From the NCBI RefSeq assembly GCF_002161355.1, contig NZ_NFHL01000002.1, forward strand, positions 434,001 to 498,000: DNA of 64,000 nucleotides, given 5' to 3'. This document shows, one piece after another, positions 43,101 through 62,739 of this stretch. A program made the translations under genes and the position numbers. Numbering within the stretch: position 1 is the first letter of the stretch; each line of letters starts with the position of its first letter. The notes under the pieces were generated by a model, which did no database searches, had not been told where the DNA came from, and saw nothing but the letters and a program-made list of their open reading frames with translations. This stretch comes from Lachnoclostridium sp. An76 (GTDB taxonomy: Bacteria; Bacillota; Clostridia; Lachnospirales; Lachnospiraceae).

Positions 43101-46100
43101 GAAACTACATCCAATACATCCAGCGCTTCCTGCAGATTCAGGACTTTATCAAGAACCCCGAGTCCATTTCCAACCGCTGCCGCGTTACCAATGTCAAGTT
43201 TTCCGACAAAACCGCCGGCATATTGAGGCGCCTTAACCGCATACTTGGAATCCTCAGCAAAATACGCGCTTCCATCCTGCTGCTGCAGATCTTCCGGCTC
43301 CTGTACATTCGTGTGGCGAAGTTTATTCACATCGCACCCGCTGATCTGTACTCCACTGCCAAATCCGAGATAACCGCCCGCGCTTCCCGAATTAGATTCA
43401 AACTGCTTCAGGCTGCTTTCTGTGTCGGCAGCAGTCTCCTCGCCCGCAGTTTCTATTTTCCCGTCAGATACAACGGTTAAACCTTTATCCGAAGAAACCC
43501 CCGCATTCTTAATGACCGGAATATACACATTAAGAACAGATACAAGATCTCCAACATTAACGTTTGCTCCCAACAGATCAATTCCACCTCGGGAAGCCGC
43601 CAGACCTCCGGATGTTGCTATTCCGGCAAAGCCGCCGGCATAATATTTTCCGCGCACATTACATATCTTCTGTACCGCTATATTATCTTTTTGAGAATTA
43701 TCGATCGTTCCACTTTCAAGCTTGCCCGCAAAACCACCGGCGCATGCCGCTTCTACCTGATAATTCTCTGTATCTTCCGCGTAAACGACATCGCAGTCTG
43801 TATATTTCGGTATAAGGTACGGTACAGCTGTAAGCAGGTCAGTAATACTAATTAATGTTGTTTCCGGCAGAACCGTTTCTTCATTATTGTCATCAGCAAG
43901 ATCTGCCAGCCCATCTGTCTGTGAAATACCGACAAAGCCGCCGGCATACCCGTTTTCTTCGTCCTTTGTTGACACTTTTTTCAGACCGTTAACTGTTGAT
44001 CCTGATATAATCGCACTTCCGCCATCAGCAACAAAGCCGCCGGCTCTGTGAATCATATTGCCGTCAGTTTCACCTGTGGACGAAACGGTAAATCCGCCAT
44101 CCATTCCGGAGACAGAAGAATCTGATATATTTACCTGAATTACACCTGCAACTGATAAAAGAGAATTAATTTTAATCAATCCCAGGATATTCAGACCGCC
44201 GGCACTGACAAGATTGCCGACTCCGGCTTTACTTACAAATCCTGCCGCATCATTAGGAGATGTGATCTCTTTTACATTTTCAACTTTAACATTCTTTAAA
44301 TTCGTGCCTATAGCCGCGCCAACTGCTCCTGCAGCCACCCCTTTTTCATTCTGAACAGTCATTCCTGCAGAATTTCCACGGATGACAACCCCATCCGCTT
44401 CAACCGGAACAACATTTGCAGCGCCTACCAATGTAGAATCAAGGATTCCGGCCATGCTCGCCGTAGCTGCATATCCGATGAAACCGCCGGCATACCCCTC
44501 CTTGCCTCTAACAACACTGATATTTGTTGCACTGCATGGGATATCCTCTCCATTATATGACACTTTATTATCTTTAACAGGATCAAGTTTCGACAAAGTA
44601 TCCTGACTGGAGGTGCCAAACTTCGCACCATCTGCTCTTCCTGCAAAGCCACCCACATAATCTTTTCCTGTTATTTCTGCCCCTGTAAGACCGGATGCCT
44701 CACATCCATAAATATGTGCCGGGCTGACACCAACAAGCGAGAGAAGATCATCTTTTCCAGATTCTACACCGGCCAGCACATCTTTCAGTAATTCAAGGAC
44801 ATCGTCCAATATACTGACTTTTGTAACTCCGGTATATTCCTCGTTCAAAGTTATTGAAGCTCCGGGTGACGTATACCCCGTAAAACCTCCCACATAGTTG
44901 CCCGATGAAGAAACTTTTCCCAGATTTTCAATTGCACAGCGAATCACATAACTACTTGCAATGTATCCTGAAAATCCTCCTGTATATGCTGCTGTTGTCT
45001 GTTCTTTGTCAGAACCAGAAACGGTAATCTTTCCCGTTCCGCTCACTTTTACATCAGAAACTATCGACTGACTGAAAACAGCTTCAAATAAATCAATATC
45101 GAGTTGATCAAGCAGCCCCTTCACTTCCGTATTCGCGATACTGCCTGCAAATCCGCCTGCAAATTTATTTCCCGTTACTGTTAAGTCAGTATTCTGAGTC
45201 ATTGTAACATTCTGGATAAAACCGCCTTCAATTCTTCCGGCAAACCCACCGTTAAAACTTGTGTTGGCTGAACCAATATCCTGTTTAACATTTGTTAAAT
45301 GACAATCCTTTATAACAGGCGCAGCAAATCCAACCGGGATTAACTGATCTAAATCTAAAATCCCACCATTGAGTAACACATCAACTATATTACCAAGCCC
45401 TAAAAACGGAAGACCATTTAAAATTTTTGCCAGAAGATCTGTAAGCTCTCCTACTCCTGTCAATGTATACAGCGTCTTCCCCTGAACATCTCCTACAAAG
45501 CCGCCGGTTCTGTCCGCCACATTATTAACTGTGGCATTTTCTACAGAACATTTCGAAATTTCTACCTGACCTGATATAGCGCCTGCGAAACTCCCTGCCG
45601 CAAACATAGACGGATTCGCATCCATTCCATTCAAAAGCATATCTGAAAGATCCCCTACGGAATCAATACCAAATAAACCTAAAATCAAATCCAAAACCCA
45701 TGCGAGGCCACCCACAATCCCATCGAGAAGTCCGACATCATGTTTAACTTCCGTACTTTCATTTTTAATAATAACATTCTTCAGATCAAGCCCCGTAACC
45801 GTTACCAGTCCCTTACTCATGAGAATATTACCATCTTCTCCCGGCAAGCTTCCGATCGTACCAAAAAATCCTGCGCCCTGTGGATCTTTTTCCAGATCGA
45901 TTTCTCCTGATTTATTCACTGTAATATTAGAAATCTCAACGGGATCGATAGCCGACTTGTCAATCACTCCTGTTTCCACATCGATTCCGGCCATATTTAC
46001 AGAGCCGATCATATTACCGGAGAACATGAGCGGTTCCCAGGGAGTGTCTTCGCCATCAGAATTTTCTCCAGTCGCTAACAAATCTATATTGCGGAAAATA

Positions 46101-47320
46101 ATATAATTTTCATCATTGTCATATGTATGACCAGAATTTTCAATATCAAGATTTGGATCTGGCTCACCTGTTTTCTGATTTACTCCACAGCGCCCATGCG
46201 CATTTCCTTTGTGATCACTCAGTTGAGAACTCGCTTTCTCTATTGCTTGAAAATCATATGTTTTATTACCATTTTGTTCCTGTGTAAGATCGGCATCACC
46301 TCCATATAGCATAATATATTCGCCATTATGAGTATCCATATGCCATCCAACACCCAAATAAGCTTGATAGACTGCAGAATACACATGCTTTCCTGTTCCA
46401 ATTGCTCTCAGCTGATCCTCATTTCCAATCAGGATATACTCTGTCCCGTCATCTGCAGTAAAAATAACCTGCCCCTGGAATTTACGTCCGTCATTCTCTG
46501 TATCCAGCACCTCTGCCGCCTTCAGCTCCGGCATCTCCGACGTAAAATCGGTTGTCAGCACATAATTATGCGCATCCGTATACTCCAGCTGTGTCTCCTC
46601 TGCCTCATCCGCGAACACGATCTGCCCCATGCCGAATTCTTCCGCGATCATATCGTTGGACATGACGGTCTTCAGCGCTTCCGGATCGTTGGCTGTTCCC
46701 AGCTGGTAATTATTGTAGATATAGATCGTATCCGTCTCTGCGTCATACAGCGGAGATCCCGCGTTCCCGCCGGTTCCGGTGAAGCTTCCCGCGAATCCCG
46801 CCGGCAGCTGCCAGAGATCGCTGCTGTCCAGGCTGATCTCATTCATCAGCATATAAGCCGCATCGTTCCCGTATACGACCGCGCTGCCGTTTTCGTCTGT
46901 GACAGCGTCTCCGGTTCCGAATGTATCGGCGGAGTCATCCCCGGAGTACACCTGCGCCCCGGTTCCTACAGCTTCCAGCTGCTCAAGGTTGTAGATGCGG
47001 ATCAGGCCGCTGTCGTATACATTCTGCTCCGCAGGCACATTCTCCTGCTCTTTGGTTTCCGTATCTCCGGCGCTGCCTGATGTGTCCGCAGCGTCTCCGG
47101 ATTCTTCTCCGGGTTCCTCGTTCCCATCGGTATTTCCGGTGTTTCCGTTTGCGTCATCTGTATACAGCGTCACGGTCTGCGGATCGTCCACGCCGGTTTC
47201 CCCGATGTCTTCTGCCTGCACACTGACCGGACCGACGCTGGTATTGAGCATCGCTATAACGAGAGCCATTGCTACCAGCCGTTTCCAGGCGTGTTTACAG
47301 ATTCTTTTCAGTCTCATCAC
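37136..47320 (-). CDS. Giant cell-surface repeat protein (3394 residues)
   Basis: A signal peptide (about residues 1-36, ending SVQAE) is followed by an acidic linker and a region with DGTEYILIGNEDQLRAIGTG-like text. From about 600 to 2330 roughly 29 repeats contain GGF(A/V)G or GGY(A/V)G, in units of about 50-130 residues, resembling GLUG-type adhesin repeats. A Cna-B-type domain follows near 2490-2570 (FQKVWVDDGNSG), then beta-rich domains including one near 2870 (FKGTGFDLISLTSRDTGAV). The C-terminus has five 12-residue GEGEEGGxQTTP repeats, QTGD, a hydrophobic helix and RRKRR, a sortase-like signal without classic LPXTG. Its start overlaps the upstream kinase-like gene by 26 bases. Role inferred: adhesion or matrix. 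Confidence 0.85.
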   Translation of the reverse strand: MMRLKRICKHAWKRLVAMALVIAMLNTSVGPVSVQAEDIGETGVDDPQTVTLYTDDANGNTGNTDGNEEPGEESGDAADTSGSAGDTETKEQENVPAEQNVYDSGLIRIYNLEQLEAVGTGAQVYSGDDSADTFGTGDAVTDENGSAVVYGNDAAYMLMNEISLDSSDLWQLPAGFAGSFTGTGGNAGSPLYDAETDTIYIYNNYQLGTANDPEALKTVMSNDMIAEEFGMGQIVFADEAEETQLEYTDAHNYVLTTDFTSEMPELKAAEVLDTENDGRKFQGQVIFTADDGTEYILIGNEDQLRAIGTGKHVYSAVYQAYLGVGWHMDTHNGEYIMLYGGDADLTQEQNGNKTYDFQAIEKASSQLSDHKGNAHGRCGVNQKTGEPDPNLDIENSGHTYDNDENYIIFRNIDLLATGENSDGEDTPWEPLMFSGNMIGSVNMAGIDVETGVIDKSAIDPVEISNITVNKSGEIDLEKDPQGAGFFGTIGSLPGEDGNILMSKGLVTVTGLDLKNVIIKNESTEVKHDVGLLDGIVGGLAWVLDLILGLFGIDSVGDLSDMLLNGMDANPSMFAAGSFAGAISGQVEISKCSVENATVNNVADRTGGFVGDVQGKTLYTLTGVGELTDLLAKILNGLPFLGLGNIVDVLLNGGILDLDQLIPVGFAAPVIKDCHLTNVKQDIGSANTSFNGGFAGRIEGGFIQNVTMTQNTDLTVTGNKFAGGFAGSIANTEVKGLLDQLDIDLFEAVFSQSIVSDVKVSGTGKITVSGSDKEQTTAAYTGGFSGYIASSYVIRCAIENLGKVSSSGNYVGGFTGYTSPGASITLNEEYTGVTKVSILDDVLELLKDVLAGVESGKDDLLSLVGVSPAHIYGCEASGLTGAEITGKDYVGGFAGRADGAKFGTSSQDTLSKLDPVKDNKVSYNGEDIPCSATNISVVRGKEGYAGGFIGYAATASMAGILDSTLVGAANVVPVEADGVVIRGNSAGMTVQNEKGVAAGAVGAAIGTNLKNVKVENVKEITSPNDAAGFVSKAGVGNLVSAGGLNILGLIKINSLLSVAGVIQVNISDSSVSGMDGGFTVSSTGETDGNMIHRAGGFVADGGSAIISGSTVNGLKKVSTKDEENGYAGGFVGISQTDGLADLADDNNEETVLPETTLISITDLLTAVPYLIPKYTDCDVVYAEDTENYQVEAACAGGFAGKLESGTIDNSQKDNIAVQKICNVRGKYYAGGFAGIATSGGLAASRGGIDLLGANVNVGDLVSVLNVYIPVIKNAGVSSDKGLTVVSDGKIETAGEETAADTESSLKQFESNSGSAGGYLGFGSGVQISGCDVNKLRHTNVQEPEDLQQQDGSAYFAEDSKYAVKAPQYAGGFVGKLDIGNAAAVGNGLGVLDKVLNLQEALDVLDVVSSNITDSDVTGDAGGFSVLADGKESGKAIGHAGGYAGSVDGSLIENSNSHNFAYIIGQETAGGFVGNMEPGSVAEVIGDVNVLGGIASVENLASILNSFIPRIHSSSTDAVPCGGVVRAEAESEENDAGGIDLKGVAGGYVGYNNGGEIEGQNGIIASADRIRSVYGYEYAGGYTGYLQNANLVDTGSISLLFGLIKLDNPLQGLQAVYATQTDTSVTGPLRNLSYDRFRSWYESVGKNGAYGSQFKDLYDGGATLYDQNIEKYIYGYEVTAGRADLESNADKRAGVAGGYVGKMTGSIVTNGQAYDLKRVEAMRSAGGYAGEMTIGSLAGVGGLEVAGVPITQGLDVLQTFVPVINNSSVRGYASGIEIEATGYSDQENDHQGNAGGYAGYVQGGTIMGTADAKCAVNGIKSVKAREYAGGYAGQIVPGSLATVDTSSQNGLLEQLLGAIIGTPGDLASLLNATISRVEYSEVTAYSDAGYVVDGTYKSEGTVEGILSKVDGSEKYAKAVGGYAGMLQGAVIGDSDIDTPGIEGNHDSAAGAIVKGVRRVTGGEYAGGFVGLGDVSAVAEVSAGGTSILGKLLGLGALDVLDAFRTYIYDSSVTGSTAYGLIVNAKEGIQKENQEEGDYTVYSGSAGGFAGTLLNGTILNSSVDELKAVEAVNYSGGFIGHSGKSGLVDLDDVGLVEGALGNLLGANAGIADVCGSTIKDSTVTGMKGGYTVKSSNGDDEIAGGFIGNGDLARMENNHASELKQVASDKTAGGFIGKTSFAYLIQVGVNSGLLQPLVDLLLALVNGLLQPDKLPDDGIIHISLGEEVLDIKVLNENGVLSATILGLKVSVELIDEKRNVIQVNIGDSSITIQASGDSVTAEEIKDVINISLIKANRTRVVDSTVTGTSIGYDVFGAGATNDEKGSGDGYAGGFVGYNNEGLLENNIMDLADTIKGADGKIGEFSGTSSLKSNYTELKDIEGTNNTYHVYRKWDDGKLTHIYNNSNVLSSNGAKKEIGGISYYDYSVQHMQYENMYKHNDVWNGAYQTTAKNIARFPVNVYVSGDQADLMLGTPTYANESDIEDIESEMQDPCAAEGDHTFQKVWVDDGNSGNTRPSEPSEINVTLKAAKEDGTEDQEASESFKMDASMAGSDKDVWTTSVDAPINYADADGTIHKYDYTVTEVPIKNSSGDQTYATIYKDVDDYTHQIINYLPTELIREDTVVIDYGLSVDIDVLTNDKALENGGKLVAVAAERQPGAINEDTKPEEGQPQEDPGVILDETLLGKVTDKLASGFETKGEAAGTYGTAYIKAGENGAADEIRFTPDTMEMDSCQQIMYAVQLPDNNGQSQYVYGMVTVVPATIIYYEDNSGAIHYKDGGYSTEKLEEDELANLTDDKDNWKTHGKWSIVTDGKVPGSDVQDTDRPGEAEIKEVIDNVYGNDTHYRDCNTYSNGSSHYVRVSAVNTYQNGGTSPMATFTFKGTGFDLISLTSRDTGAVTIRVYKGTNNEGERILNHTVDTYYGYTCTRDKETGRLIWTPDESSTDILYQIPILKEEMEEYGQYYVEVVPMYYDMYDKYDDKYYDIYVDAVRIYDPADPKGNDYKVIEDVYQTDGENHPDYTELRQILLNADNVGGQIPNGAVFVDGNGELGNISAYESFGPKNEVYLAPGQAISFYLWTNEKPDKVQLGAKLALGTDTKLAIATAVQEGDPEAAKSWSFYKVKNWDINTSYDMYYEFTDNCVWEEADGENPYMAYRTAYPIVIANPKTLYGDGKLAENEDTAILSLTNLQWTGRTSGATEDVEDQPGTEEGTMPGQDDVQARMAKAGARTMQVMAAEDTQDSITLMASVAPENIPAAYYFINQSDSSEEDGGQTTPGEGEEGGGQTTPGEGEEGGSQTTPGEGEEGGGQTTPGEGEEGGSQTTPETGDNNAQQKPAGQAPGNNEDSAGDPADKTPDKSGYSAVQTGDMVAAAGFAVLFAMMALSAIAASAAVYYRRKRR
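37365..37535. repeat. 36-bp tandem repeats in the cell-wall region of the giant gene
   Basis: About five copies encode GEGEEGGxQTTP, with sequence variants among copies. Such wall-spanning repeats often vary in number by recombination or slippage. Confidence 0.8.
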
Positions 47321-52184: not shown

Positions 52185-52796
52185 CTAAAAAACTTTACGC
52201 TTTCTTCTATAAGCGATTCCTGGCGCGATGCATCCTCCTGCGCCGACAGCGCCAAGGATGATATATGGCATAACTGCCGTATTGTCACCTGTATTCGTTC
52301 CCGGAAGCTGAGCTTCGTAAGTAGGAATTTCCGCCATAACCTCGTTTGAACTTAAATTGTAGTTTCTTTCCTGCTCGTTTCCGTCTCTGTCCTTATACGT
52401 GTCAGCTCATGAAATGTCAGCCTGGTTAATGATACGTCTTACTTCATGGTCGTTTTCCGTAGAAGTTTCGCTGCGGTTCGCGAAGGTCACATTAAGTACG
52501 ATTTCTCCGCTTGTAAAATACTCCAGCGTATTTGCATAAACTACTTTTACGCCTACAACCTGACCGTCAAAATCTACCGTATGGTCGGTTGAAATATCTT
52601 CAAAGTTCTTTAATTCAGTCCATGTACCCGCCTCTTTTTCTTCAGGGCTCTTCTGAACGTAGATCACCGCTCCGGCCTTTTCATTGGCGTCTCCATTTAC
52701 GGAAGCATTTACGGTTACAGAATTGATCGTATAGTCTCCGTCTTTCGCGTAAATCTCAAACTGCGCTCCTGAAAGATTCTGCGTTCCGCCTTCGTT
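52185..52796 (-). pseudogene. 3' fragment of a sortase-anchored surface protein with an in-frame stop
   Basis: Reading from about 52796, the frame gives SGAQFEIYAKDGDYTINSV, further beta-rich text, then HEVRRIINQADIS and TGA (52409-52407). The same frame continues with ADTYKDRDGNEQERNYNLSS and a C-terminal sorting signal LPGTNTGD, a hydrophobic helix and YRRKRKVF before TAG at 52185. So one nonsense codon separates the anchor from the rest, and the 5' part of the gene is missing, replaced by integrase sequence. A functional, anchored protein cannot be made without read-through. Confidence 0.8.
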
Positions 52797-53037
52797 TCGT
52801 TATTACCAAAATGCTTTTCTCAAAATCAAAATCTATTGGAGTCAACGCCAACAATTCGCCCAAACGCAGACCGCACCAATAAAGTATTTCAAATGCGATA
52901 AATGATGCAGGCCGATCTTTAATTACGGCAGAAAACTGCCGATATTCCTCTTTCGTCCAAATGAGAATTTCGCCCGCCCAGTTTTTATAGCGGGCAGAAG
53001 CAAACTATGTTCCGTTTTTGTCTTTGTAAGCTTCCAT
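52797..53037 (-). pseudogene. Tyrosine integrase remnant
   Basis: Minus-strand text starts MEAYKDKNGT, TAG (53007-53005), FASARYKNWAG, as in Tn916-like integrases that have Trp at the stop position. It then jumps to ILIWTKEEYRQFSAVI and FEILYWCGLRLGELLALTPIDF, the start of the catalytic domain including the first Arg, skipping about 130 residues. The frame ends where the surface-protein fragment begins. Three defects show it is dead. Confidence 0.75.
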
Positions 53038-53070
53038 AATAGTCTCCTGAATATAATAATTGATTTCCAT

Positions 53071-53694
53071 CACCAGAAGATTGAAAAGTTCCAGCAGGTA
53101 GTGGATATGTTTAACCGGGAGGCAAAACTAAAAAACATCAAAACCCTGGAAGAGCTGAACCGGCTGTGGGCCGTGTTCCTTGATGCGTACTATCACCAAA
53201 AACCCCATGAAGGGATCAGCGAATACTACGAAAGCCTTGGTGCGGCAGTCCCGGAATCAGGGATCACTCCCCTTCAGGAATGGAACCGTGACAGCCGTCC
53301 CCTGACCTATCTGGATGTCTCTGTTGTATCCGAAGCATTTCTGCACCATGAGACACGTAAAGTGGACAAGGGCGCCTGTATCAGTGTCAGGGGCAGAAAG
53401 TATGAAACGAAACCGGCTCTGATCGGATATAAGGTTGAGATCTCCTATGATCCTGCAGCTCCCGAAACCATTACGGTAAGTTATCCGGGATACGAGCCGT
53501 TTACCGCACAGCCGGTCAGGATTGGCGAGTTCTGTGATAAGAACCCAACACTTCCTGCTGCGATGCAGGAACAGACTCCGACAACCTCGCGCTTCCTTGA
53601 TGCGCTGGAAAAGAAACATTCGGAATCGACCCGCCAGATGGCCGATGCAATCTCCTTTGCTTCCTATCGGAAGGAGGTGGATGATCATGTATGA
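53071..53694 (+). pseudogene. C-terminal remnant of a Mu/TniA-type DDE transposase
   Basis: The frame carries QKIEKFQQVVDMFN, LEELNRLWAVFLDAYYHQKPHEGI, the last helices of the DDE core, then the Mu-type beta-barrel domain (RKVDKGACISVRGRKYE). The first ~300 residues with most catalytic acids are missing; the left border near 53070 is the edge of the integrase scrap. Its stop overlaps the start of the ATPase gene, as in TniA-TniB or IS21-like pairs. Confidence 0.8.
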
Positions 53695-54505
53695 ATCCTT
53701 CTTTGGAATGGAGCATACACCCTTTGTCCGTGATATCCCAGCTGAGAAACTCTATGAGTCTGATGCATTCCGGGAAACGCTCGGCAGGCTCTGCTATGTA
53801 GCAGACCGGCAGATGTTTGCGGTCGTAACAGCAGATCCCGGCTGTGGAAAATCCACGCTGATCCGCAGGTTTTATTCGGAACTTCCGAGGGAAGAATATA
53901 TCATCCTGTATCTTTCCGATTCCAAGCTGACTCCGCGGTGGTTTTATAAGGGGATGCTGGACCAGCTGGGGCTGGAAGCACGGTTCTACCGCGGCGATTC
54001 CAAACGTCAGCTCCAACAGCAGATCGAGATCATCCATGGTGTCCAGCATAAAAAAGTGGTATGCGTTTTGGATGAGGCACACCTGCTGGAGAAAGAAACA
54101 CTGGAAGAATTCCGTTTCCTTCTAAACTACAGGTTCAATTCTGTAAGTCCCATGGCTGTCGTGCTCGTAGGGCAGACAGAACTGTGGGACAACAAGCTGA
54201 AACTTCAACGGTACGCGGCGATCCGCCAGCGGATCGATATGTACTGTACACTCCCGCATCTGGACCGGGCAGAGACAGAACAGTATGTCAAAAGCCATAT
54301 GGATTATGCGGAATGCAGCCAGGAGATCTTTACAACCAAAGCAATGGACGAGATCCATAAAGCTTCGGCCGGGATTCCGAGAATGGTCAACCGGGTGTGC
54401 GAAAAATCGCTTATGTATGCGTTCCAACAGCAAAAACGGCTGATCGATGATTACATGATCAAGTATGTAGTGGAACACGAAATGCTTGGAACCGTAACCG
54501 GATAG
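53687..54505 (+). CDS. TniB/ExeA-like AAA ATPase of a transposon
   Basis: 272 residues. The start FFGMEHTPFVRDIPAEKLYES is typical of ExeA-like transposition ATPases; Walker A is ADPGCGKSTLIRRF and Walker B VVCVLDEAHLL, followed by VLVGQTELWD with the sensor residue and an arginine-rich AAIRQRIDMYC. The ATG at 53687 is nine bases after AAGGAGG. It would deliver target DNA to the transposase, which here is truncated, so the element is probably immobile unless helped in trans. Confidence 0.85.
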   Translation: MYESFFGMEHTPFVRDIPAEKLYESDAFRETLGRLCYVADRQMFAVVTADPGCGKSTLIRRFYSELPREEYIILYLSDSKLTPRWFYKGMLDQLGLEARFYRGDSKRQLQQQIEIIHGVQHKKVVCVLDEAHLLEKETLEEFRFLLNYRFNSVSPMAVVLVGQTELWDNKLKLQRYAAIRQRIDMYCTLPHLDRAETEQYVKSHMDYAECSQEIFTTKAMDEIHKASAGIPRMVNRVCEKSLMYAFQQQKRLIDDYMIKYVVEHEMLGTVTG

Positions 54506-54554
54506 GGAAGGTGCCGTCCGGATTCCGGACGGCCCATACATCAACCATCACGGT

Positions 54555-54619
54555 GACAGTAAACTTAGCAGTTTAAAGACAACTCATGAGAGCAGTCTGG
54601 TGACAGCTCATGAAATCAG
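54555..54619. repeat. Transposon-end direct repeats
   Basis: Three related 17-18-mers lie at 54555, 54578 (GACAACTCATGAGAGCAG) and 54602 (GACAGCTCATGAAATCAG), 23-24 bp apart, directly downstream of the ATPase gene. This is the arrangement of transposase binding sites at the end of Tn7/Tn552-like elements; the first copy is more degenerate. The exact end of the element was not located. Confidence 0.65.
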
Positions 54620-54670
54620 CAACAGGATTATTACGAGGATTATCCGGCAAAATCTATAACTAACAATCTA

Positions 54671-54691
54671 GGGGGCAACTTTGCCCCCTTT
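54671..54691 (+). terminator. GC-rich hairpin at the border of the AT-rich island
   Basis: GGGGGCAA and TTGCCCCC with a short loop, then TTT on the plus strand. It lies between the transposon end and the stop of the HEPN-type gene. Confidence 0.6.
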
Positions 54692-54692
54692 C

Positions 54693-56633
54693 CTATTTTG
54701 ATTCATTATTATTATCAAAAAATGTACAAAACTCATCATTTATTTTTATCATATACTCGATGAGTAAAAGCAATATGTAAAAATAGTATTGATAATGTAC
54801 TCCTTCATCATTACTGTCTGATTGTGTACCATGCATATATTTATTTCGGATATCAAGCCCATTATTATATTTTGATTTATTGAGTAAATAGTCTATCCAA
54901 TTCTGCTCTGGAAGTGAAAAAAGTGTGCTTTCCATCTTAATTATTCTTTTATCATAAAGTAAGTCAAATAATCTCCTAAACTCTGGGGAATAATAATAGG
55001 AATTTATCACTTCATTTTTATGCAAATCCAACATAATAGAAAACAGATACCAATCTTTTATTTTCACATATCCATCTTTGTCATACAGAATCCAACCATT
55101 TTTCGCGAGCCATTCTAAATCATCTAAAGACGCCTCGCTAAAATCTTCCTTTTTAACATTTTCATGTGTTATTAACTCGGAAAAACTTTTATAGTTTTTA
55201 TTTATCCGGGAAACCCCGTGTAACAAACATTGATCTGAAAAAAGCAAATACTGTATATGTTCAAATTCTGAACCTGTACCATAAATATATTTATTTTTAA
55301 GTAGACTGGGGATTTGTGATACCCCCACTGTACCTGATGTCATTTGCAATAATTCATGATCTATCTCACCATCTTCAACATATAATTTAAATTGCTTTAA
55401 CACGGACTCCATTTCTGGTAACATATGCCTACATTTTTCTAAATATGAACTACTTGCCGATGGCAATTTAATCGTAAATCCAGAGATACCAAATTCATCT
55501 CTAAGATACTCGTTAAAGAACCACTGTATGACATCTTCTAATAATACACCTTGCCTTGCTAACTCCTGATAATACCCTTTTACCTGAAGTAACGCCAATG
55601 CCATTTTCATATAAAATGTACTTCCAGCTAAATAATCATTTTGAGATCTAATAATTATTTTTTCCATTAAGATTGGTATCTCAGATTTCTTACTTACGAG
55701 CGGTATCCGCATCTCACGATCGGCAAACCCGAACAAATAAATAAAATTATTTAGTAATGTGGGATAATCTTTATTATTGGCAATCCACTTGCGATCATAT
55801 ATATAATACTGGCATTGGCTCTCCTGTTCCTCCTCTAATGGGATTGTACAGTCACGAAAAGATACACAAATCTCATGATCTATTTTTACTCCCTTGTTTT
55901 CTCTCTCCATGTCAGTAATAAGTTCTTTTCGTTTTCTTGCAGCATTCAGTTTCACCTTATCACTAATTGGCAGTTGAGCATTACTGCGTACACCATATAT
56001 AATTTCCAAATAATTGATATGAGCTAAAGGTGAATTAATATAATTCATAAATATCTCATTAATATCATCCTCTGAGAGCTCTGGTAAGCAGATAGAGTGT
56101 TTCGTATTTAAAGGATGAATTTCATATTTATCTAATAGTATTTTCGCTGCGTCGGGAGTGTTTAAAAACCATTCTCTTAAAACTTCAGTATAAAATTTTA
56201 CTATCTGGGAATGCTCCAATATCTGTGTTATCGACACTCCAGACTTATATATAACTTTTTTGAATGTGCCACTGCTTACTTTTTTATATATTTTATATCT
56301 TTCAAATAGTGTCCAAAAATCTTCTTTATACTCCCATTCTATTTCATCATATAAGTTTTGAAGATTCTCATCAATGATATGATTCATATATCTGCCAAGG
56401 TACTTTTCTAATATTTTTTCATATTGTAACGAAAGCTGACTTAATACCTCTTGTTTCTGATATATCTTTTTATCAGATTTCATCCAACAAAGTATATTAT
56501 ATATTTCAAGGACATCATTAATAGAAAAATCGTTTACATTATCTTGTGTAACCTTTTGACTAATATTTTCTATCTTCTGTATAAATATATCTGTATCATT
56601 CCAATGCAAATAACCATATTTTATTCTTGTCAT
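54693..56633 (-). CDS. Large AT-rich protein with C-terminal HEPN-like motif (DUF4209-like?)
   Basis: 646 residues, no signal peptide or clear membrane segment. The final 60 residues contain DIRNKYMHG, an Rx4H motif (Arg596, His601) set between helices, as in HEPN domains with RNase activity and in DUF4209-type proteins. The rest is largely helical and unrecognised; QCQYYIYDRKWIANNKDYPTL marks a possible domain border near 285. Codons are strongly AT-biased compared with the flanks, indicating transfer. AAAGGGG lies five bases before the ATG. Its position in a transposon-bordered island beside a toxin-antitoxin pair and a multi-domain enzyme suggests defence, but this is not shown. Confidence 0.6.
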   Translation of the reverse strand: MTRIKYGYLHWNDTDIFIQKIENISQKVTQDNVNDFSINDVLEIYNILCWMKSDKKIYQKQEVLSQLSLQYEKILEKYLGRYMNHIIDENLQNLYDEIEWEYKEDFWTLFERYKIYKKVSSGTFKKVIYKSGVSITQILEHSQIVKFYTEVLREWFLNTPDAAKILLDKYEIHPLNTKHSICLPELSEDDINEIFMNYINSPLAHINYLEIIYGVRSNAQLPISDKVKLNAARKRKELITDMERENKGVKIDHEICVSFRDCTIPLEEEQESQCQYYIYDRKWIANNKDYPTLLNNFIYLFGFADREMRIPLVSKKSEIPILMEKIIIRSQNDYLAGSTFYMKMALALLQVKGYYQELARQGVLLEDVIQWFFNEYLRDEFGISGFTIKLPSASSSYLEKCRHMLPEMESVLKQFKLYVEDGEIDHELLQMTSGTVGVSQIPSLLKNKYIYGTGSEFEHIQYLLFSDQCLLHGVSRINKNYKSFSELITHENVKKEDFSEASLDDLEWLAKNGWILYDKDGYVKIKDWYLFSIMLDLHKNEVINSYYYSPEFRRLFDLLYDKRIIKMESTLFSLPEQNWIDYLLNKSKYNNGLDIRNKYMHGTQSDSNDEGVHYQYYFYILLLLIEYMIKINDEFCTFFDNNNESK

Positions 56634-56841
56634 CTTAACCCCTTTATCTACACCGTTTTTACAAAAATTATAGCACTCAACATTTCACTGTGCCACCTTA
56701 TTTTATCTTTGCAAAATGTAGCTGGCATCCGCTTAGAAAGCTCAGTTTTTCAATATTTCCCTATGAATAAGTTGGCAGAATAAGGTATCGTCTTAGACCC
56801 CGATCTTATTGCTAACAGAAGCCGGCCATGGTATATTTGTC

Positions 56842-56850
56842 TGGTATAAT
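56842..56850 (+). promoter_or_regulatory. Extended -10 promoter of the toxin gene
   Basis: TGGTATAAT (56842-56850) carries the TGN extension; no good -35 was found. It is followed by CTGGG, exactly as after the antisense promoter. Confidence 0.6.
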
Positions 56851-56913
56851 CTGGGAGAAAAAAACGGATGCGATTTCTGTCAGCCCTCTAAGATACAAAG
56901 GAGGGTGATGCCA

Positions 56914-57000
56914 ATGAACGCTATGGAAGTAATGACATTAGTGCTTGTAATCTTTGCGGCTTTATCTTACATAGATCATCATAACGACAAAAAGAAATAG
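56914..57000 (+). CDS. Holin-like type I toxin
   Basis: 28 residues beginning MNAMEVMTLVLVIFAALSY, a short hydrophobic helix followed by a charged DHHNDKKK tail, as in the putative holin-like (Fst/TxpA-related) membrane toxins of Firmicutes. AGGAGG lies about eight bases before the ATG at 56914; the frame is open further but without a ribosome site. The stop codon is part of the terminator stem. An antisense RNA gene faces it. High expression would be expected to damage the membrane. Confidence 0.75.
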   Translation: MNAMEVMTLVLVIFAALSYIDHHNDKKK

Positions 57001-57089
57001 CATCCCATAACCGCCTAAAGTTCGAGATGCTATCGCTTTTTTGATAGATATAACTGAGGGCATCAGATCTTGCATCTGATTACCTTTCT
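56985..57089 (-). ncRNA. Antisense antitoxin RNA of the type I pair
   Basis: The promoter at 57124-57096 would start an RNA near 57089 that runs leftward and stops at the shared hairpin 57033-56997 followed by TTTCTTTTTG, overlapping the 3' end of the toxin mRNA. About 100 bases, no ORF. Overlap with the toxin's 3' region is the arrangement seen in TxpA/RatA-like systems. Confidence 0.65.
56997..57042. terminator. Bidirectional terminator shared by toxin mRNA and antisense RNA
   Basis: ATAGCATC (56997-57004) pairs with GATGCTAT (57026-57033). T-rich tracts follow on both strands (CGCTTTTTTG to the right, TTTCTTTTTG to the left). Confidence 0.75.
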
Positions 57090-57095
57090 ACCCAG

Positions 57096-57124
57096 ATTAT
57101 ACACTGAGGGCTTGAATTTTTCAA
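57096..57124 (-). promoter_or_regulatory. Promoter of the antisense RNA
   Basis: TTGAAA (57124-57119), 17 bases, TATAAT (57101-57096) on the minus strand, close to consensus and stronger-looking than the toxin promoter. Confidence 0.7.
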
Positions 57125-57226
57125 GTCCTCTGTTTCTCCGGTCTGGATGCCGATTACGTAAAATACATGATAAAAGAACTATATATTTTTGAACTTCCAT
57201 TTATTCCACTTTCTATTTAACATTTT

Positions 57227-60200
57227 TTAAAATGAAAACTTCATCAAATCAAGTTCTCTTCGTATTTTATCAACATTTTCAGAGAATTTTTCTAATCCAC
57301 CCCCGAATACCTCTCCATTAAAACAACGCGCACAGGAATAATCTTCATATACACGCATACCGAAAATTCCCTCTGCACAGGGATACATTTCGCAATTATA
57401 TATGCAGTCCGAAGAATATATTCTTTTAGGAATCATAATCTCTATTCCCATTGCTTTCATGCACAGATAATCTTTTTGCAGATAAAAGTCATCATCATTA
57501 ACTCCGTAAAGCTGCTTTAACCGATTCTTAATCTCAACTATAGATACATGCTGAAACTCATTTGGCAGTTTTCCTACCGGAAACAAATCCAAAAACTTTA
57601 TATTTATTTTCAGCCTTGCAGCGTATGCTACAAGATGCTCTATATCTTCGATATTGTATTTTGTGATAACGGAATTTAATTTTACCTGAAATTTATTGCT
57701 GACAAGATACTCTATCCCTGCTTTTACATCTTCTAGGCACTCTCCCCCTCCAGTGATAACCTTATATTTCTCGCTGTTACATGTATTTAATGTAACATTA
57801 AATGACAAACTGCTACCTTTGATTTTATCCAATTCCGACTTTAGTCTGGTAATTTGAGTTCCATTTGTTGTAAATCCAATGTCTTCAAAATCTTTCTGGA
57901 ATTTATTGCATATCTCAATGATATTTGGATAAAGCAAAGGTTCTCCACCGCTTATTTTTATTTTTGAAAACCCGTTTTTCCTAGCTTGCTCAAGAAATTC
58001 TTCTAATTTAAACTCCGGATTAGATTTAATAGAAGAACCGATAAGCGAATCAATACGTCCTTCGTGATGGCAGTAAAGGCAATTCAAATTACATTTTTCA
58101 GATATAATAATGCGTAGGTATTTTTTTACATTTTCCTTAGTTGAGTTTTCCTCCGGCTTATTTTCCTGTTCTATCCTCATAGAACCAAAATATGCTTTAA
58201 CTATTTCGGCAAGCACACCTTTTTCTTTACATGCTTTTAAAACTTTAAATCTCTCTTTTGAATTATTGAAGCTCAACATTCCACGTAAAATATCATCTTT
58301 TTTTAGTCCTTCAATTTCCGGTAACTGCCTAACCGCCTCTTCATAATTCAACACGTCACCCCCAAGCTTGTTAAACGATGTATACCATAGAACAAAATGA
58401 ATTATAATGTCATCAATCGGAATCACGCCAGATTGTAATCTGTTCTTTTCTTGTTCATATACTGCATCGAAATGTCTGCTATTGTGTTTTATTATCAATT
58501 GCATCAGCACAATAATTATTTTATCGTAATAAAGGCTTATTTTCTGATGTTCAGACAACTCTTTTGAGTCCAGCTCCAATAATTTGTTATATAGATTATC
58601 GTAGTCAATATTCGGTCTAACGCCGATAAGGTAATATGCACAGTTCCATGCATACATAAAATGATTCAAATCTGTCATAAGGCTATGTATTACTTTTGCA
58701 ACAATACTAATCCTGAATTCATAAGCCATATTAATACCGAATAATTTCCTTTCAGTATTTGAACTCTTCAATGACTCAATAACTATTCTTTTTACGATAG
58801 CCTCTATATATCCGTCTTCATCTTCTCGAGAACGGTGCTTCTTCAATACATCTATCGCTTTCCACCGTACCTCAAGTATAGTTGACTCTAAATACTTAAC
58901 TAGCTCGTCATAGATTGCTCCAGCTTTTTCCCCTTCACCGTCCGCCAGTTCTTGATTCAACCGCTCAATCTGTTCGATTTCTTCGTTCCACTGAGCTTCA
59001 TATTTTCTATAGTTACCTGTTTCCACTCCCATTGTAATAAGCTCACACGGATACTCATTTGGGATAAAGGAATGAAATTCCCCTTTAGGCATCAGTATAA
59101 CCGCTCCTGCAGAAGCTTCAATGTATTGTTTACCTATATAACCATATATATTTCCTTTTACAACATATGTCACTTCATCCATATCCTTATGCATATGAGG
59201 TACAACCATATCCATCCCTGCCGATTTAGAAAGATAAAGATTAAAAATGCCCCCATTATATGGAATCCGAACAGCTCCATCGCTTATAGATGTGTCAGTA
59301 ACCGGGAATACAATCTGACCTTTAGTATCATCCACATCAGTTTCTTTCTCCTTTTGATACAACTCACTCTGATTTCTCTCATTTTTTGCTCCGGAATCTT
59401 TATTGGTATTTTTGTTCCATTCTCCATCACTGAAACTATATATGTCTACTATATCGATATGTTCATTTTGATTTTTCTTTATCTGATACAAAGTAACCGT
59501 AGGGATATTGTAACCATCTTTAAATAATCCTGCACTTGCTAATTGCGTGATACCTTCTATCTCTCTATCTTCTTTTTTATGTATATGGCCACAGAAGTAA
59601 TACTTAGCCGGTAAATTTTTCAAAAATTCTAATGTCTTCTCTCGGGAATATTTTTCAAACATCTGCAATGGATGATGGCCAATTACGATTGTTGGATTCC
59701 TACTATCAAGATTCGAAACATCAGGGAAATCATGTACACACATCCACATTTTCCCCTGATCATTTACCTCAACTATTCCATCGTTCTTAATAATATTACC
59801 TTTCTCATCCAAAACCGGTTGTCCAGCAAAAGTACTAGTATTTAAAACAACAATATTTATCCCCGACACTTTATCATATATATAAGATTTTGTTGTGATC
59901 GAATTATCTTGCCCTGCAACACCTTTACAAAATTTTTCAAATTTTTCAAAATCAGGCCGTAATTTAGACGCATAATTCTCTTGCTGTTTTATTTTTTCAT
60001 CTAAAGATTTTTGCTCCCAATCCTTCAACAGAGTAAACCTTGCATCATCACGCACATAATCGTGATTTCCTATACAAAATATAATATGTGGGCAGAATTT
60101 CTTTATTTCACTAATTAATTTTTCAGCCTGTTGAACCATATCTCTATCCTGATATTTCCCTTGATGTATCACATCACCGGTAATTAGGACAAAATCAATC

Positions 60201-60328
60201 GATCCAATAATCCTCAATAATCCCTTCAGTCTGTCACGTAAAGTCGGATCAAGCCACAAACTATCAGGGTTTCCAATATGCAAATCTGATATATGTAGCC
60301 ATCTTATCTCATTGTATTCTTTCAACAC
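57227..60328 (-). CDS. Metallophosphoesterase-cupin-helical-radical SAM fusion protein (1033 residues)
   Basis: Residues 8-285 are a calcineurin-like phosphoesterase: DLH (15-17), GDVIHQG (51-57), GNHD (87-90), GHH (217-219) and GHIH (247-250). After a charged linker, residues 350-435 form a cupin (HMH at 378-380, E385, H419). Residues 440-720 are helical and HEAT-like (VRWKAIDVLKKHR). Residues 735-1020 are a radical SAM domain with CNLNCLYC (746-753), KISGGEPLLYPN and a C-terminal cysteine group (975, 979, 984, 999, 1002) reminiscent of MoaA. The start is GTG with AAGGAG five bases upstream. DNA is strongly AT-rich. I know no characterised protein with this order; a nucleotide- or RNA-directed defence role is a hypothesis from context. 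Confidence 0.8.
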   Translation of the reverse strand: MLKEYNEIRWLHISDLHIGNPDSLWLDPTLRDRLKGLLRIIGSIDFVLITGDVIHQGKYQDRDMVQQAEKLISEIKKFCPHIIFCIGNHDYVRDDARFTLLKDWEQKSLDEKIKQQENYASKLRPDFEKFEKFCKGVAGQDNSITTKSYIYDKVSGINIVVLNTSTFAGQPVLDEKGNIIKNDGIVEVNDQGKMWMCVHDFPDVSNLDSRNPTIVIGHHPLQMFEKYSREKTLEFLKNLPAKYYFCGHIHKKEDREIEGITQLASAGLFKDGYNIPTVTLYQIKKNQNEHIDIVDIYSFSDGEWNKNTNKDSGAKNERNQSELYQKEKETDVDDTKGQIVFPVTDTSISDGAVRIPYNGGIFNLYLSKSAGMDMVVPHMHKDMDEVTYVVKGNIYGYIGKQYIEASAGAVILMPKGEFHSFIPNEYPCELITMGVETGNYRKYEAQWNEEIEQIERLNQELADGEGEKAGAIYDELVKYLESTILEVRWKAIDVLKKHRSREDEDGYIEAIVKRIVIESLKSSNTERKLFGINMAYEFRISIVAKVIHSLMTDLNHFMYAWNCAYYLIGVRPNIDYDNLYNKLLELDSKELSEHQKISLYYDKIIIVLMQLIIKHNSRHFDAVYEQEKNRLQSGVIPIDDIIIHFVLWYTSFNKLGGDVLNYEEAVRQLPEIEGLKKDDILRGMLSFNNSKERFKVLKACKEKGVLAEIVKAYFGSMRIEQENKPEENSTKENVKKYLRIIISEKCNLNCLYCHHEGRIDSLIGSSIKSNPEFKLEEFLEQARKNGFSKIKISGGEPLLYPNIIEICNKFQKDFEDIGFTTNGTQITRLKSELDKIKGSSLSFNVTLNTCNSEKYKVITGGGECLEDVKAGIEYLVSNKFQVKLNSVITKYNIEDIEHLVAYAARLKINIKFLDLFPVGKLPNEFQHVSIVEIKNRLKQLYGVNDDDFYLQKDYLCMKAMGIEIMIPKRIYSSDCIYNCEMYPCAEGIFGMRVYEDYSCARCFNGEVFGGGLEKFSENVDKIRRELDLMKFSF

Positions 60329-60785
60329 TCGTACTCCTTCTTAAGGTAAATTAGCCCTTGTTCTTCAAGCGAACAAAAACAGTCTGCTCCTTTAAATATA
60401 AAAAAGGTCCTTTAATCACCAATACTTAAGAACCCTTCACCACGTATATATTATAACATATTAGTATTCATTTGGACGGATTATTTTACATCTCTAACAA
60501 AGTTTCGTTTTTATATTACCATATCGAAAACTAAGCCAATCACAATCCATACATACTGATGTATTCATTAATCGCCTGAGCAATCTACATTAGGAGACAT
60601 TCCTTTCTAGTATAAGTGCATAATTCTTTTCTAATAGTCAGGGATTAGTCTTCCGTTACGTTTAAGATTGCAATAACAATCCACACTATTATCAGTATAG
60701 AACGCTATTCTTTCGGGGATTATCTTATCCTATTAAAAGGTTATTTACTGATAATAGAATCGTAATTCCTTACTGTAGCTCCCTC
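60329..60785. other. AT-rich intergenic region with a 12-bp inverted repeat
   Basis: No ORF of note. A TATAAT on the minus strand (60455-60450) may serve the fusion gene. CTATTATCAGTA (60686-60697) recurs as its exact complement at 60746-60757 with 48 bases between; it could be a cruciform or a mobile-element end. Confidence 0.5.
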
Positions 60786-61460
60786 TTACTTTTGTTCCGG
60801 CGCATACACCACTTCAATTTCCACCCCGTCCTCCGTCTGATCCAACCGCACATAATAATCCCGAATATAATAAGTGACATATTGTTCCTGCAGGGAGTAC
60901 AATTCCTGTGTCTGAAAATCAATCATACACAAGCCTATCGGACATTCCGCATCTCCATATCCATCTATTACATCAAGCAGTTTATCCAAACACGTCTAGC
61001 AGAGATATCCTCGCACCTTATCTGCATCAAAGTAATTTTCCTCACCGTATTCTATCCGTACCTCTGAGATCCTTCGAGCATGGTTTAGATCCACATGAAA
61101 AATACAGCCGTCTTCTCCAGTCGCTGTAATCCTTGAGGAGTTCTGACCACTTATAGTTTCGTCAGCATCTTTTCCAACGCCCATATCCAGAACATACCAA
61201 TTATTCAAAGAAATAATTCCCAGATCATCTTTCCCCCGATACATTCCCATCAGGCTCCGGCTGTTGCTGCCACACAGACAGCATTCTTCTTTATTGTCCA
61301 AAGCACTCTTTACCGCTTCCTGCGGGACTTGGCATTGTTCACTTTCCTGAGAATCCACCTGTAGCATCGAAGCACGTATTGCCGGAAGTCCCAAACCAAT
61401 TGCAAGACCGGAAAGGAACATCAGACCGCCAATAATTATTGTAATCCGATATCGTTTCAT
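60786..61460 (-). pseudogene. Cys-containing secreted/membrane protein interrupted by an amber codon
   Basis: Starting at 61460 (AAGGTGAG upstream), 154 codons give an N-terminal helix (RITIIIGGLMFLSGLAIGLGL), then EECCLCGSNSRSLMGMYRGKDDLGIISLNNW. The frame meets TAG at 60998-60996 after VRGYLC and continues TCLDKLLDVIDGYGDAECPIGLCMIDF for 69 more codons. A single substitution (for example GAG to TAG) would explain the break, so the intact protein had about 224 residues. Cysteine spacing suggests metal binding or disulfides. Unknown family, probably part of the neighbouring conjugative element. Confidence 0.65.
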
Positions 61461-61623
61461 CCACTCACCTTATCATTCTTTTAGCTGTATAAACTAATTC
61501 TATTAGAGTTACTATAACAAAATCCAGATACAAATTCATCATATAGTGCGTATTTCATTGCTTTTTTCTTCATATTCTGCCAATTCTTTCCAATAGAAAA
61601 ACCTGTGGTTTCCCACAGGCTCT

Positions 61624-61947
61624 TTACTCTTTCTCCGCTTCCTCGATCATCACGTCCAGAATACGATATATTTTATTTTGTTCTTTCAACGGCAGTTTCC
61701 TGATCCGCTCCTCACGTTCAATATACTGCTCATATTGTTTTACGTTCAGGACATCCGCCAGCAGATCATCTGCAGATGCGCCGATTGCATTAGCAATCTT
61801 GATAAATGTTGCAAGTTTCGGATCTTTCACATTACATTCGATGGCGCTAAGATAGGTACTGCTGATTCCGACTTTTTCTGCCAGACGCTCCTGCGTCAGC
61901 CCTGCGGCGACTCTCCCCGCCTTTATTCTTGTTCCTATCCCTTTCAT
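61624..61947 (-). CDS. XRE-family HTH regulator
   Basis: 107 residues. HTH_3 domain at 5-62 (IKAGRVAAGLTQERLAEKVGISSTYLSAIECN), then a helical tail (EQYIEREERIRKLPLKEQNKIYRILDVM). GGAGG lies seven bases before the ATG. Such single-domain regulators commonly control integrative elements; target unknown. Confidence 0.85.
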   Translation of the reverse strand: MKGIGTRIKAGRVAAGLTQERLAEKVGISSTYLSAIECNVKDPKLATFIKIANAIGASADDLLADVLNVKQYEQYIEREERIRKLPLKEQNKIYRILDVMIEEAEKE

Positions 61948-62376
61948 CGCACCACCTCCGTTTTCTCTATCTATTAGTTAAAATCGTGTACCTCTAGTAT
62001 ATGTATTTCCTTCTCGTCAAAACAGTATCTATTCGTTATATAGCCTCAATCTATTTGATTGACTTTCTTCTGTCACAGAAATGTCCTTAAATGGCACATT
62101 CATGCGATTGTAACGGTAAATCCCATATGCTAAGATTGGTATTGTCAAAATTATATGCAGACGGAATACAGCACACGGGACGCGCCTCTGTTCCCGGACA
62201 GTGTGGTATTTCAGGAGGTGAGAGCAAACTACAACTTCATATTGATTCGGAAAGCAGTCTGATTGGCCAGGCTGCTTTCTTTTATGCTTGCGGCATAGAC
62301 CGCAAAGGAGGCTGGAAACTATAAGCACCACCGGAGTCTCCTCTGAGATTCCGGTGCAACTAAAGGAGGTACTTAC
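61948..62376 (+). other. Leader region of the conjugation genes
   Basis: No full gene. A 35-codon ORF (62155-62262, MQTEYSTRDAPLFPDSVVF at its start) has no ribosome site and may be the end of a lost gene. ACCGGAGTCTC (62330-62340) pairs with GAGATTCCGGT (62345-62355), a hairpin just before the ribosome site of the next gene. Confidence 0.4.
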
Positions 62377-62739
62377 GTGATTAACCCAAACCAGAAACAC
62401 CGCAGGATCAACCGTGGCGCCGTCCTCTATGCAGCCTTTCTTCTTACAACGCTACTGATCGGGAACGTACAGCCGGTCCTCGCCGCAAACATGTGGGATA
62501 AAGCGAAAGAGATCATGCAGGATGTCTATAACCAGATTGTTCTGATCTCCACGATTGCCGCTGTCGTTACAGCTTCTGTGGCTCTACTTCTGATGAATTT
62601 TTCCAAATCCGGAAAGACTGTGGATGAGTCCAGAGCATGGCTGAAACGAATCATTATTACCTGGGCCATCTTAAACGGCTTAGGTTTTATCATGGCCTAC
62701 ATCACCCCCTTCTTCGCTGGCGGACAGTGGAACGGTTAA
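62377..62739 (+). CDS. Conjugal transfer membrane protein, CD1113-like / TrbC-VirB2-like
   Basis: 120 residues: signal-like N-terminal helix ending VLAAN, then two helices (QIVLISTIAAVVTASVALLLMNF and IIITWAILNGLGFIMAYITPFFAG). Size, topology and text fit the small pilin-like subunit that precedes the VirB6-like protein in clostridial integrative conjugative elements. Start is GTG with AAAGGAGG seven bases upstream. The next gene follows after 18 bases. Confidence 0.75.
   Translation: MINPNQKHRRINRGAVLYAAFLLTTLLIGNVQPVLAANMWDKAKEIMQDVYNQIVLISTIAAVVTASVALLLMNFSKSGKTVDESRAWLKRIIITWAILNGLGFIMAYITPFFAGGQWNG

Follow-up and report, generated by a model that had tools for sequence, protein, structure and literature searches.

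The window, a 64,000-nucleotide stretch of the Lachnoclostridium sp. An76 genome, encodes on its minus strand (57227..60328) a 1033-residue protein in which a metallophosphoesterase (MPE), a cupin, a helical block and a radical SAM (rSAM) domain are joined in one chain. We consider it somewhat probable, on the basis of sequence comparisons, that this is a single-chain anti-phage protein, in which the hydrolase would be the weapon and the cupin-rSAM unit the trigger. The defence role appears to be supported by genomic context and domain kinship, and from these domains we infer the chemistry. As its MPE is of an anti-phage weapon kind and is swapped in some relatives for another predicted phosphohydrolase, it seems to represent a new kind of anti-phage protein.

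Domain architecture

The open reading frame is uninterrupted, with a GTG start at position 60328 and an AAGGAG-like site just 5' of it. The GC content is 33-34% over 56-60 kb, versus 43-59% (2-kb steps) over the first 52 kb of the window. A sequence-only reading had placed four parts in one AT-rich frame; the composition agrees with this description, Pfam domains and conserved catalytic residues bear out the four parts, and the motifs it named are present. Conservation was assessed on an alignment of 48 rows, 45 MPE-headed and three (P0044-46) with a different head.

The calcineurin-like MPE, the proposed effector (residues 7-305; 59414..60310, minus strand), has metal positions D15, H17, D52, N88, H89, H218, H219, H248 and H250, kept in 43-47 of the 48 rows, three of which are HD-headed. 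Pfam Metallophos (PF00149) matched residues 9-251 (E 7.7e-17; 62.8 bits, cut-off 21.5), which places it in this superfamily. The cupin (residues 346-445; 58994..59293, minus strand) has the HxH...E...H ligand pattern, with H378, H380, E385 and H419 present in all 48 rows; the Cupin_2 match in the window protein (residues 376-432, E 4.8e-6, 26.6 bits) was slightly below the 27.2 cut-off, which relative P0045 exceeded (29.3 bits). The block that follows (residues 446-730; 58139..58993, minus strand) is the least conserved folded part, with a median identity of 33%. It had been described as HEAT-like: its all-helical nature was confirmed, but no HEAT family was matched in the window protein with Pfam. 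In the structure prediction that the same reading had proposed, an AlphaFold model of the 1033-residue protein (pLDDT 84.6, pTM 0.50), strands cover the cupin and 15 helices span residues 447-715. The two ends of the model matched MPE and rSAM structures by structure comparison, the VIA-align structure rows covering mainly residues 2-317 and 732-1033.

The MoaA-like rSAM domain (residues 731-1033; 57230..58138, minus strand) is the most conserved part (median identity 60%). Pfam Radical_SAM (PF04055) matched residues 740-901 (E 9.4e-22; 78.4 bits, cut-off 29.5), which places it in this superfamily, and the CxxxCxxC cysteines of the [4Fe-4S] cluster motif CNLNCLYC (residues 746-753; 58070..58093, minus strand) were present in 48/48 rows.

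Distribution of the family

The MPE-cupin-helical-rSAM architecture was shared by 45 of 55 database matches, the window protein included, so it is not, as far as sequence goes, the unprecedented arrangement it had been taken for. This count falls short of the whole family, because scoring was limited to the 7990 candidates with the most words in common (7992 in two other searches). Given this sharing and the conservation of the sites, chance or an assembly artefact was rejected. Two members, P0042 (763 residues) and P0043 (702 residues), have little or nothing of the MPE, perhaps through truncation at a contig end; in P0036 the N-terminal 138 residues are absent, and P0020 ends at about residue 880. 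No description of this architecture was found among the papers listed in a literature search, judged by title and the start of the abstract, with subscription papers and bioRxiv poorly covered.

The protein type is rare. At E≤1e-30, the only match among 397 genomes of the family was the genome on which the sample was centred; the same was true at E≤1e-40 among 391 of the class and 299 of the phylum (these three sets overlap), and in a further sample of 398. A scan of genome contigs with two peptide patterns, which misses relatives lacking them, gave 26 loci, two of them full-length (L009, from Lachnoclostridium sp. An118, and L010, from Eubacterium); none of the other 24 matches begins before query residue 710. 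No relatives were found in 22 pattern stretches from viral contigs. No phage or plasmid record covered 80% of the query: the matches of 15 phage records all lay within residues 734-948 and, among the 20 matches listed for 131 plasmid records, all lay within residues 633-1002. A housekeeping family with the same domain order, named earlier as the finding that would overturn a defence role, was not encountered in these samples. This scarcity also argues against a metabolic or natural-product enzyme of nucleoside chemistry carried on a mobile element by chance, to which a MoaA-like rSAM domain, a metal-binding cupin and a phosphoesterase would each be suited; as both contexts read include neighbouring defence genes and the head is exchanged with defence-type proteins, we regard this explanation as very improbable.

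Genomic context

Two unrelated contexts were read, that of the window lineage, which L009 shares, and that of L010. In the window, the gene lying 593 bases downstream (54693..56633, minus strand; 646 residues) matched the PADLOC phage-defence candidate PDC-S56 (E 1.4e-215), a system with candidate status only; it also adjoins the rSAM gene in An118. PDC-S56 had no match in the L010 genome, and neither a paper in the literature search nor a PDB match was found for it. In L010, the gene upstream of the family member encodes the Shedu protein SduA (E 3.6e-126), preceded by a methylase-specificity pair (restriction-modification-like) and AbiEi; a MobA relaxase and a tyrosine integrase lie downstream, in a Eubacterium mobile element.

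A 5.9-kb stretch holding both window genes (54625..60504, minus strand) is 99.0% identical to An118 (L009, positions 119-5993). The identity ends at position 119 of L009, 118 bases from the end of that contig; at the other edge, it extends a few bases into the 3' end of an An118 S1-domain gene and breaks off close to a Mu/TniB-type insertion in the window. We also considered a transposon whose terminal repeats would enclose both genes, and dropped it, as a repeat search of 52400-62400 gave none bracketing them. Given the edges of the shared block, it may be a fragment of a related conjugative element and not a self-contained cassette.

Kinship and exchange of the N-terminal hydrolase

The window MPE is, by sequence, of a defence type. 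It matched the PADLOC CBASS effector PDLC00736 (E 8.4e-19, residues 8-252), a model also matched by P0055, an MPE-SAVED-S24 protein (E 5e-97). In genome-sample searches, which score only candidates from a loose first look, MPE matches (E≤1e-12) were found in four of 392 genomes of the order, the window genome included. The relative in L042 is fused to NACHT, and that in L043 directly follows LmuA/LmuC/LmuB-like genes (a Lamassu/ABC-3C operon); L044, which precedes a gene with a DAC domain (DisA-like), is less clear than these two. The MPE-NACHT protein (L042 10391-13912; MPE 9-247, NACHT 382-546) thus resembles the window protein in bearing a related N-terminal MPE on a large chain. Positions up to about 320 of the PADLOC model PDC-S60 matched the MPEs of P0047 and L042, and positions 377-500 the NTPase region of P0075; in the PADLOC search at E≤0.1, the window MPE had no match to PDC-S60, although relatives did. 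However, where MPE-NACHT and PDC-S60 carry a STAND/NACHT NTPase, the window protein has the cupin-helical-rSAM module, and no P-loop NTPase domain (STAND/NACHT, Avs-like) was matched in it with Pfam. Likewise, the CBASS MPE-SAVED effector has a related N-terminal MPE, but no SAVED domain was matched in the window protein (Pfam). The Bacillus subtilis protein YydB (9a6c_B), a 481-residue chain modelled with YydD according to the entry title, presumably has neither cupin nor rSAM domain.

P0044-46 carry the same cupin-helical-rSAM module (41-44% identity in the cupin, 50-53% in the rSAM domain) behind a different N-terminus with an HD-phosphohydrolase motif, of a type also seen on PPDK/PEP-utiliser, NACHT-FGE and AAA-HEAT proteins. 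Residues H99, H152-D153, H270, H333 and D376, in the arrangement H...HD...H...H...D, were present in 38/38 rows of this head, which aligned in register, but weakly, with Pfam HD-CE (hhalign E 0.0028, probability 11%; controls, E 0.65 and 0.36). No Pfam HD domain was found in the alternative heads scanned, and a PDB profile search gave no HD fold, its one match (E 0.094) lying outside the head. The structure model of the HD form was poor (pLDDT 61), with just 3 of 12 alignment rows carrying the HD-like head. The HD identity of this head is predicted from its motif.

The MPE and rSAM trees, built with 20 of the 41 rows P0001-P0041 and with SH-aLRT as the only support, disagree. In the MPE tree, P0051-54 fell inside a 24-row clade of the cupin family (98); their rSAM domains lay far off in the rSAM tree. 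P0047-50 branched with the CBASS, NACHT and ABC-3C MPEs (98 at the wider node) and stayed with the family in the rSAM tree (92); the tree tool flagged long branches, including the join of P0047-50 with P0055. The tree conflict and the occurrence of another head on the same module indicate that the N-terminal hydrolase is exchangeable. The earlier suggestion of a link to phage defence is in part supported by this exchange, together with MPE kinship and the neighbouring genes.

Relationship of the radical SAM domain to MoaA and viperins

MoaA, AbmM and viperin-like enzymes are among the solved relatives closest in sequence to the rSAM domain. R739, which aligns with MoaA Arg17, K789 and K791 were present in all 48 rows, and K883, K911 and R992 in 47. 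A nucleotide substrate, proposed from the outset, is plausible from these relatives and from the alignment of basic residues with those of MoaA. The invariance or near-invariance of these residues also weighs against an RNA- or protein-modifying, maturase-like rSAM enzyme acting on host or phage RNA or on its own hydrolase, with the head as a processing nuclease. On general inspection, neither a precursor peptide nor an RNA partner stood out beside the gene, and we consider such an activity improbable.

The domain is neither a plain MoaA nor a plain viperin, scoring below the NCBIfam cut-offs for both. The scores with the MoaA (GTP 3',8-cyclase) equivalogs were 124.4 bits (cut-off 325.25) and 121.9 bits (cut-off 284.05), the rSAM domain is fused to other domains, and a distinct MoaA-like gene (L002) is present in the host. 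The MoaA auxiliary cluster motif is a C-terminal C-x2-C-x13-C, present in the MoaA-like rows compared here, including the host protein. The C-terminal cysteines of the window protein (C975, C979, C984 and C1002; 57323..57406, minus strand), conserved in 47/48 rows with a gap in the remaining one, had been called MoaA-like; all four are present, but with a spacing of their own, C-x3-C-x4-C-x17-C, and their sequence suggests a possible auxiliary cluster. A C-terminal GG tail is a MoaA feature; none of the 48 rows (one truncated) ends in GG, which is also true of the archaeal MoaA-like rows compared here. AbmM (8wm2), which matched over only about 110 residues, shares the CxxxCxxCHxEG pattern in its rSAM core; it is a biosynthetic enzyme of nucleoside-antibiotic chemistry (PMC12691670).

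The resemblance to prokaryotic viperins (pVip), likewise rSAM enzymes of phage defence, raises another explanation: the rSAM domain might make an antiviral nucleotide that the MPE or HD head trims, recycles or detoxifies, with no separate toxic effector. The PADLOC pVip model matched the window protein (E 2.5e-19), both alternative heads look like phosphohydrolases, the rSAM domain is the most conserved, and a nucleoside-antibiotic cluster is described in which an rSAM enzyme is accompanied by a nucleotide triphosphatase conferring resistance to the product (PMC12691670). Nevertheless, the NCBIfam viperin model (NF038283) scored 53.1 bits against a cut-off of 180, and the MPE relatives on the NACHT protein and beside Lamassu-like genes are proteins in which no rSAM domain was matched. 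Extra C-terminal cysteines, like the additional domains of the window protein, are not known as viperin features. We judge this explanation rather unlikely, though less so than the metabolic and maturase-like ones.

Proposed mode of action

In the single-chain anti-phage reading that we favour, the N-terminal MPE would be a toxic effector, either a metal-dependent nuclease or a nucleotide phosphodiesterase, replaced in some relatives by the predicted HD phosphohydrolase. The trigger role is placed on the whole cupin-helical-rSAM unit by analogy, because a STAND NTPase or SAVED sensor holds the same place beside related MPEs; sensing by just the cupin and the helical block, as first suggested, may also occur. 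The rSAM domain would carry out [4Fe-4S]/SAM chemistry, with a nucleotide as the most likely substrate. Either the resulting product or the inability to form it would, along with a cupin ligand, free the hydrolase on infection. The freed enzyme would then degrade nucleic acid or nucleotides and halt phage growth, probably by abortive infection. The rSAM domain is better conserved than the MPE, and its chemistry, rather than the hydrolase, could be the main antiviral act.

More tentatively, the cupin-helical-rSAM unit might constitute a new class of infection trigger, gating interchangeable phosphohydrolase effectors by radical chemistry on a nucleotide or by phage interruption of this chemistry, through loss of the substrate, the iron-sulphur cluster or SAM. 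It would then be the radical-SAM equivalent of sensing by STAND or CBASS systems.

Viperins, which make chain-terminating nucleotides, are the main rSAM enzymes known from phage defence. In the present protein, a MoaA-like rSAM-cupin unit with invariant metal sites is tethered to a replaceable hydrolase head of a defence type. If this unit is a trigger, infection would be sensed through radical chemistry, a principle of its own; if the unit is instead a nucleotide-making enzyme, it would add a route to antiviral nucleotides.

Family members and conserved sites

The database search with the window protein (1033 aa; gene at 57227-60328, minus strand) gave 55 matches, the first of which (P0001) was the protein itself. 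The architecture metallophosphoesterase (MPE)-cupin-helical part-radical SAM (rSAM) was found in 41 matches (P0001-P0041, with P0020 and P0036 partial) and four divergent ones (P0047-P0050). Two matches (P0042 and P0043) lacked most or all of the MPE and are perhaps truncated, three (P0044-P0046) had a different head, four (P0051-P0054) joined an MPE to another middle part and a distant rSAM domain, and one (P0055) was an MPE-SAVED protein. In a 48-row alignment (P0001-P0041 and P0044-P0050, the other seven matches being omitted), the cupin ligands H378/H380/E385/H419, the rSAM cysteines and G794, E796 and P797 of the GGEP motif were present in all rows, G795 in 47, and C975, C979, C984 and C1002 in 47, the remaining row having a gap. 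For the MPE metal positions the counts were 43-47 of the 48 rows, three of which have an HD-like head. Median identity to the window protein was 60% for the rSAM domain and 45% for the MPE (43 MPE-headed rows each), and 46% for the cupin and 33% for the helical part (44 MPE-headed rows each).

An exchangeable N-terminal head

The alignment of P0044-P0046 with the window protein begins only at residue 349. A search with residues 1-470 of P0045 identified 38 database proteins, all with invariant H99, H152-D153, H270, H333 and D376, arranged as in an HD phosphohydrolase site. In a profile comparison with Pfam HD-CE members, based on six sequences (seven of 12 loci, minus L047, which has no open frame), the first H and the HD were in register, with a weak match (E 0.0028, probability 11%; controls: MPE alignment, E 0.65; helical alignment, E 0.36). 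Given these invariant residues and this in-register but weak comparison, the putative HD assignment is well motivated, but short of proof. The genome that contains the window also encodes an HD-CE domain (Pfam, E 1.4e-44) in a long open frame at another place on the window's contig (L046, G000:C12:200708-201331), perhaps another conflict gene.

The HD-like module lay at or near the N-terminus in 11 of the 13 proteins (of the 38) placed by BLAST, and further inside in P0088 and P0090. It occurs in a NACHT/FGE protein (P0075), an AAA-HEAT protein (P0089) and 20 proteins of ~1470-1520 aa, among the 38, that the precomputed Pfam set marks as PEP-utiliser/PPDK proteins (P0058-P0068, P0070, P0071, P0073, P0074, P0076 and P0078-P0081). 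Besides the head, these 20 have PEP-utiliser mobile and PPDK ATP-binding domains and one more Pfam match to HD (921-988, 1057-1251 and 1282-1324 in P0068, the protein for which positions were read), possibly another undescribed effector-enzyme architecture.

In the cupin-helical tree, the HD-headed rows were nested among MPE-headed rows (support 87). The rSAM tree, with four MoaA-like rows as its root, joined P0047-P0050 and the HD-headed rows to the family (92), but outside the 20 rows from P0001-P0041 (98). The MPE tree (20 of the 41 rows P0001-P0041, P0047-P0055 and L042-L044) placed P0047-P0050 with CBASS, NACHT and ABC-3C MPEs. A long-branch warning applies to the trees, including the joining of P0047-P0050 with P0055. 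The trees agree with head exchange; the N-terminal hydrolase head is exchangeable on the cupin-helical-rSAM module.

Kinship of the MPE with defence proteins

With the window MPE alone as the query, 392 genomes of the order yielded, at E<=1e-12, its own gene and three others: an MPE-NACHT protein of 1174 aa (L042); a 629-aa MPE (L043) that comes immediately downstream after genes like LmuA, LmuC and LmuB (E 2.4e-62, 4.7e-15 and 1.4e-142), with several recombinase genes, called by eye, nearby; and an 806-aa MPE (L044) whose next gene encodes a DisA-like DAC domain. The link to defence is least clear for L044. Its DAC gene (4229-5626), right behind the MPE gene, scored 27.0 bits, exactly the cut-off, with a weak DACNH match, and is a possible nucleotide-signal partner. 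The PADLOC CBASS effector model PDLC00736 matched the MPE parts of L042, L043 and L044 (1e-43, 5.2e-30 and 1.2e-31) and the window MPE (8.4e-19). When the host genome was searched with the whole window protein, the next MPE-like match had an E of only 5.7e-4, so ordinary MPEs do not answer a search of this kind. By its kinship, the window MPE is of the defence type.

P0051-P0054 (848-855 aa), with an MPE 45-47% identical to that of the window protein, form a second MPE-rSAM family. After the MPE come a different middle part of ~200 aa, which had no Pfam match in the three proteins scanned and resembles PLD only by eye, and a distant rSAM domain whose C-terminal cysteines form a related set. 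They lay inside the cupin-family MPEs in the MPE tree and far from the family in the rSAM tree.

The rSAM domain

The nearest solved relatives by sequence were MoaA, AbmM and viperin-like enzymes, with BlsE further down; the known substrates of these enzymes are nucleotides or nucleosides. The peptide maturase SuiB also matched the profile (1.4e-5). AbmM swaps sulfur for oxygen when the thiofuranose core of albomycin is built (PMC12691670). R739 aligned with MoaA Arg17, one of three arginines changed in entry 2fb2 according to its title, and K789, K791 and S793 aligned with MoaA K69, R71 and T73 (counted by hand); these four residues were present in 48/48 rows, and K883, K911 and R992 in 47/48. 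In MoaA, the residues at some of these positions hold the triphosphate. Under the main rival to the effector-trigger account, the antiviral agent would be the product of the rSAM domain.

Identity with MoaA was rejected on scores far below the equivalog cut-offs, and identity with viperin on the NCBIfam cut-off. Unlike MoaA, the window protein has a different C-terminal cysteine spacing and no family row (0/48) ends in GG; a MoaA-like gene is present separately in the host genome (L002).

Genomic context and distribution

The gene directly downstream, 593 bases away, encodes a 646-aa match to the PADLOC phage-defence candidate PDC-S56 (1.4e-215). Both genes lie in a 5.9-kb stretch 99.0% identical to Lachnoclostridium sp. 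An118. There, the next genes are an S1-domain gene and one for a VirD4-type coupling protein. In the window, the two genes are flanked by Mu/TniB-type genes (53101-54505) and an IS110 transposase (from 63603), and on the IS110 side, beyond the end of the window, a lysozyme-like/C39 protein is encoded, of a kind known from conjugative elements. In Eubacterium MAG HAN015, the family gene is preceded by Shedu SduA, a methylase-specificity pair and AbiEi. Downstream of it lie genes for a relaxase and an integrase. A 589-aa DUF4365 protein without a PADLOC match (L010, 13425-15194), encoded just downstream of this copy, is a possible further defence gene.

There was no match beyond the centre genome in the family of An76 (397 genomes, E<=1e-30), in the class (391) and phylum (299) samples, which overlap with it and with each other, or in the family of the Eubacterium (398; E<=1e-40 for every sample but the first). 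This sparse distribution is more in keeping with a mobile defence gene than with a housekeeping gene.

Elsewhere in the window, three consecutive genes (33154-35733, minus strand; all by eye) look like a peptide-modification cluster: a small signal-peptidase-like gene, one for a 383-aa rSAM protein whose C-terminus is cysteine-rich, and an HPr-kinase-like gene of 300 aa. A 3394-aa open frame with a repetitive tail (37136-47320, minus strand; by eye) apparently encodes a giant secreted or wall-anchored protein.

Proposed function

The putative defence role of the window protein is supported by its genomic context; the identities of the trigger and the substrate are inferred. The most economical account is that of an effector-trigger protein, in which the interchangeable hydrolase head would be the effector and the conserved rSAM-cupin unit would act as the trigger, placed where STAND or SAVED domains sit in its kin.
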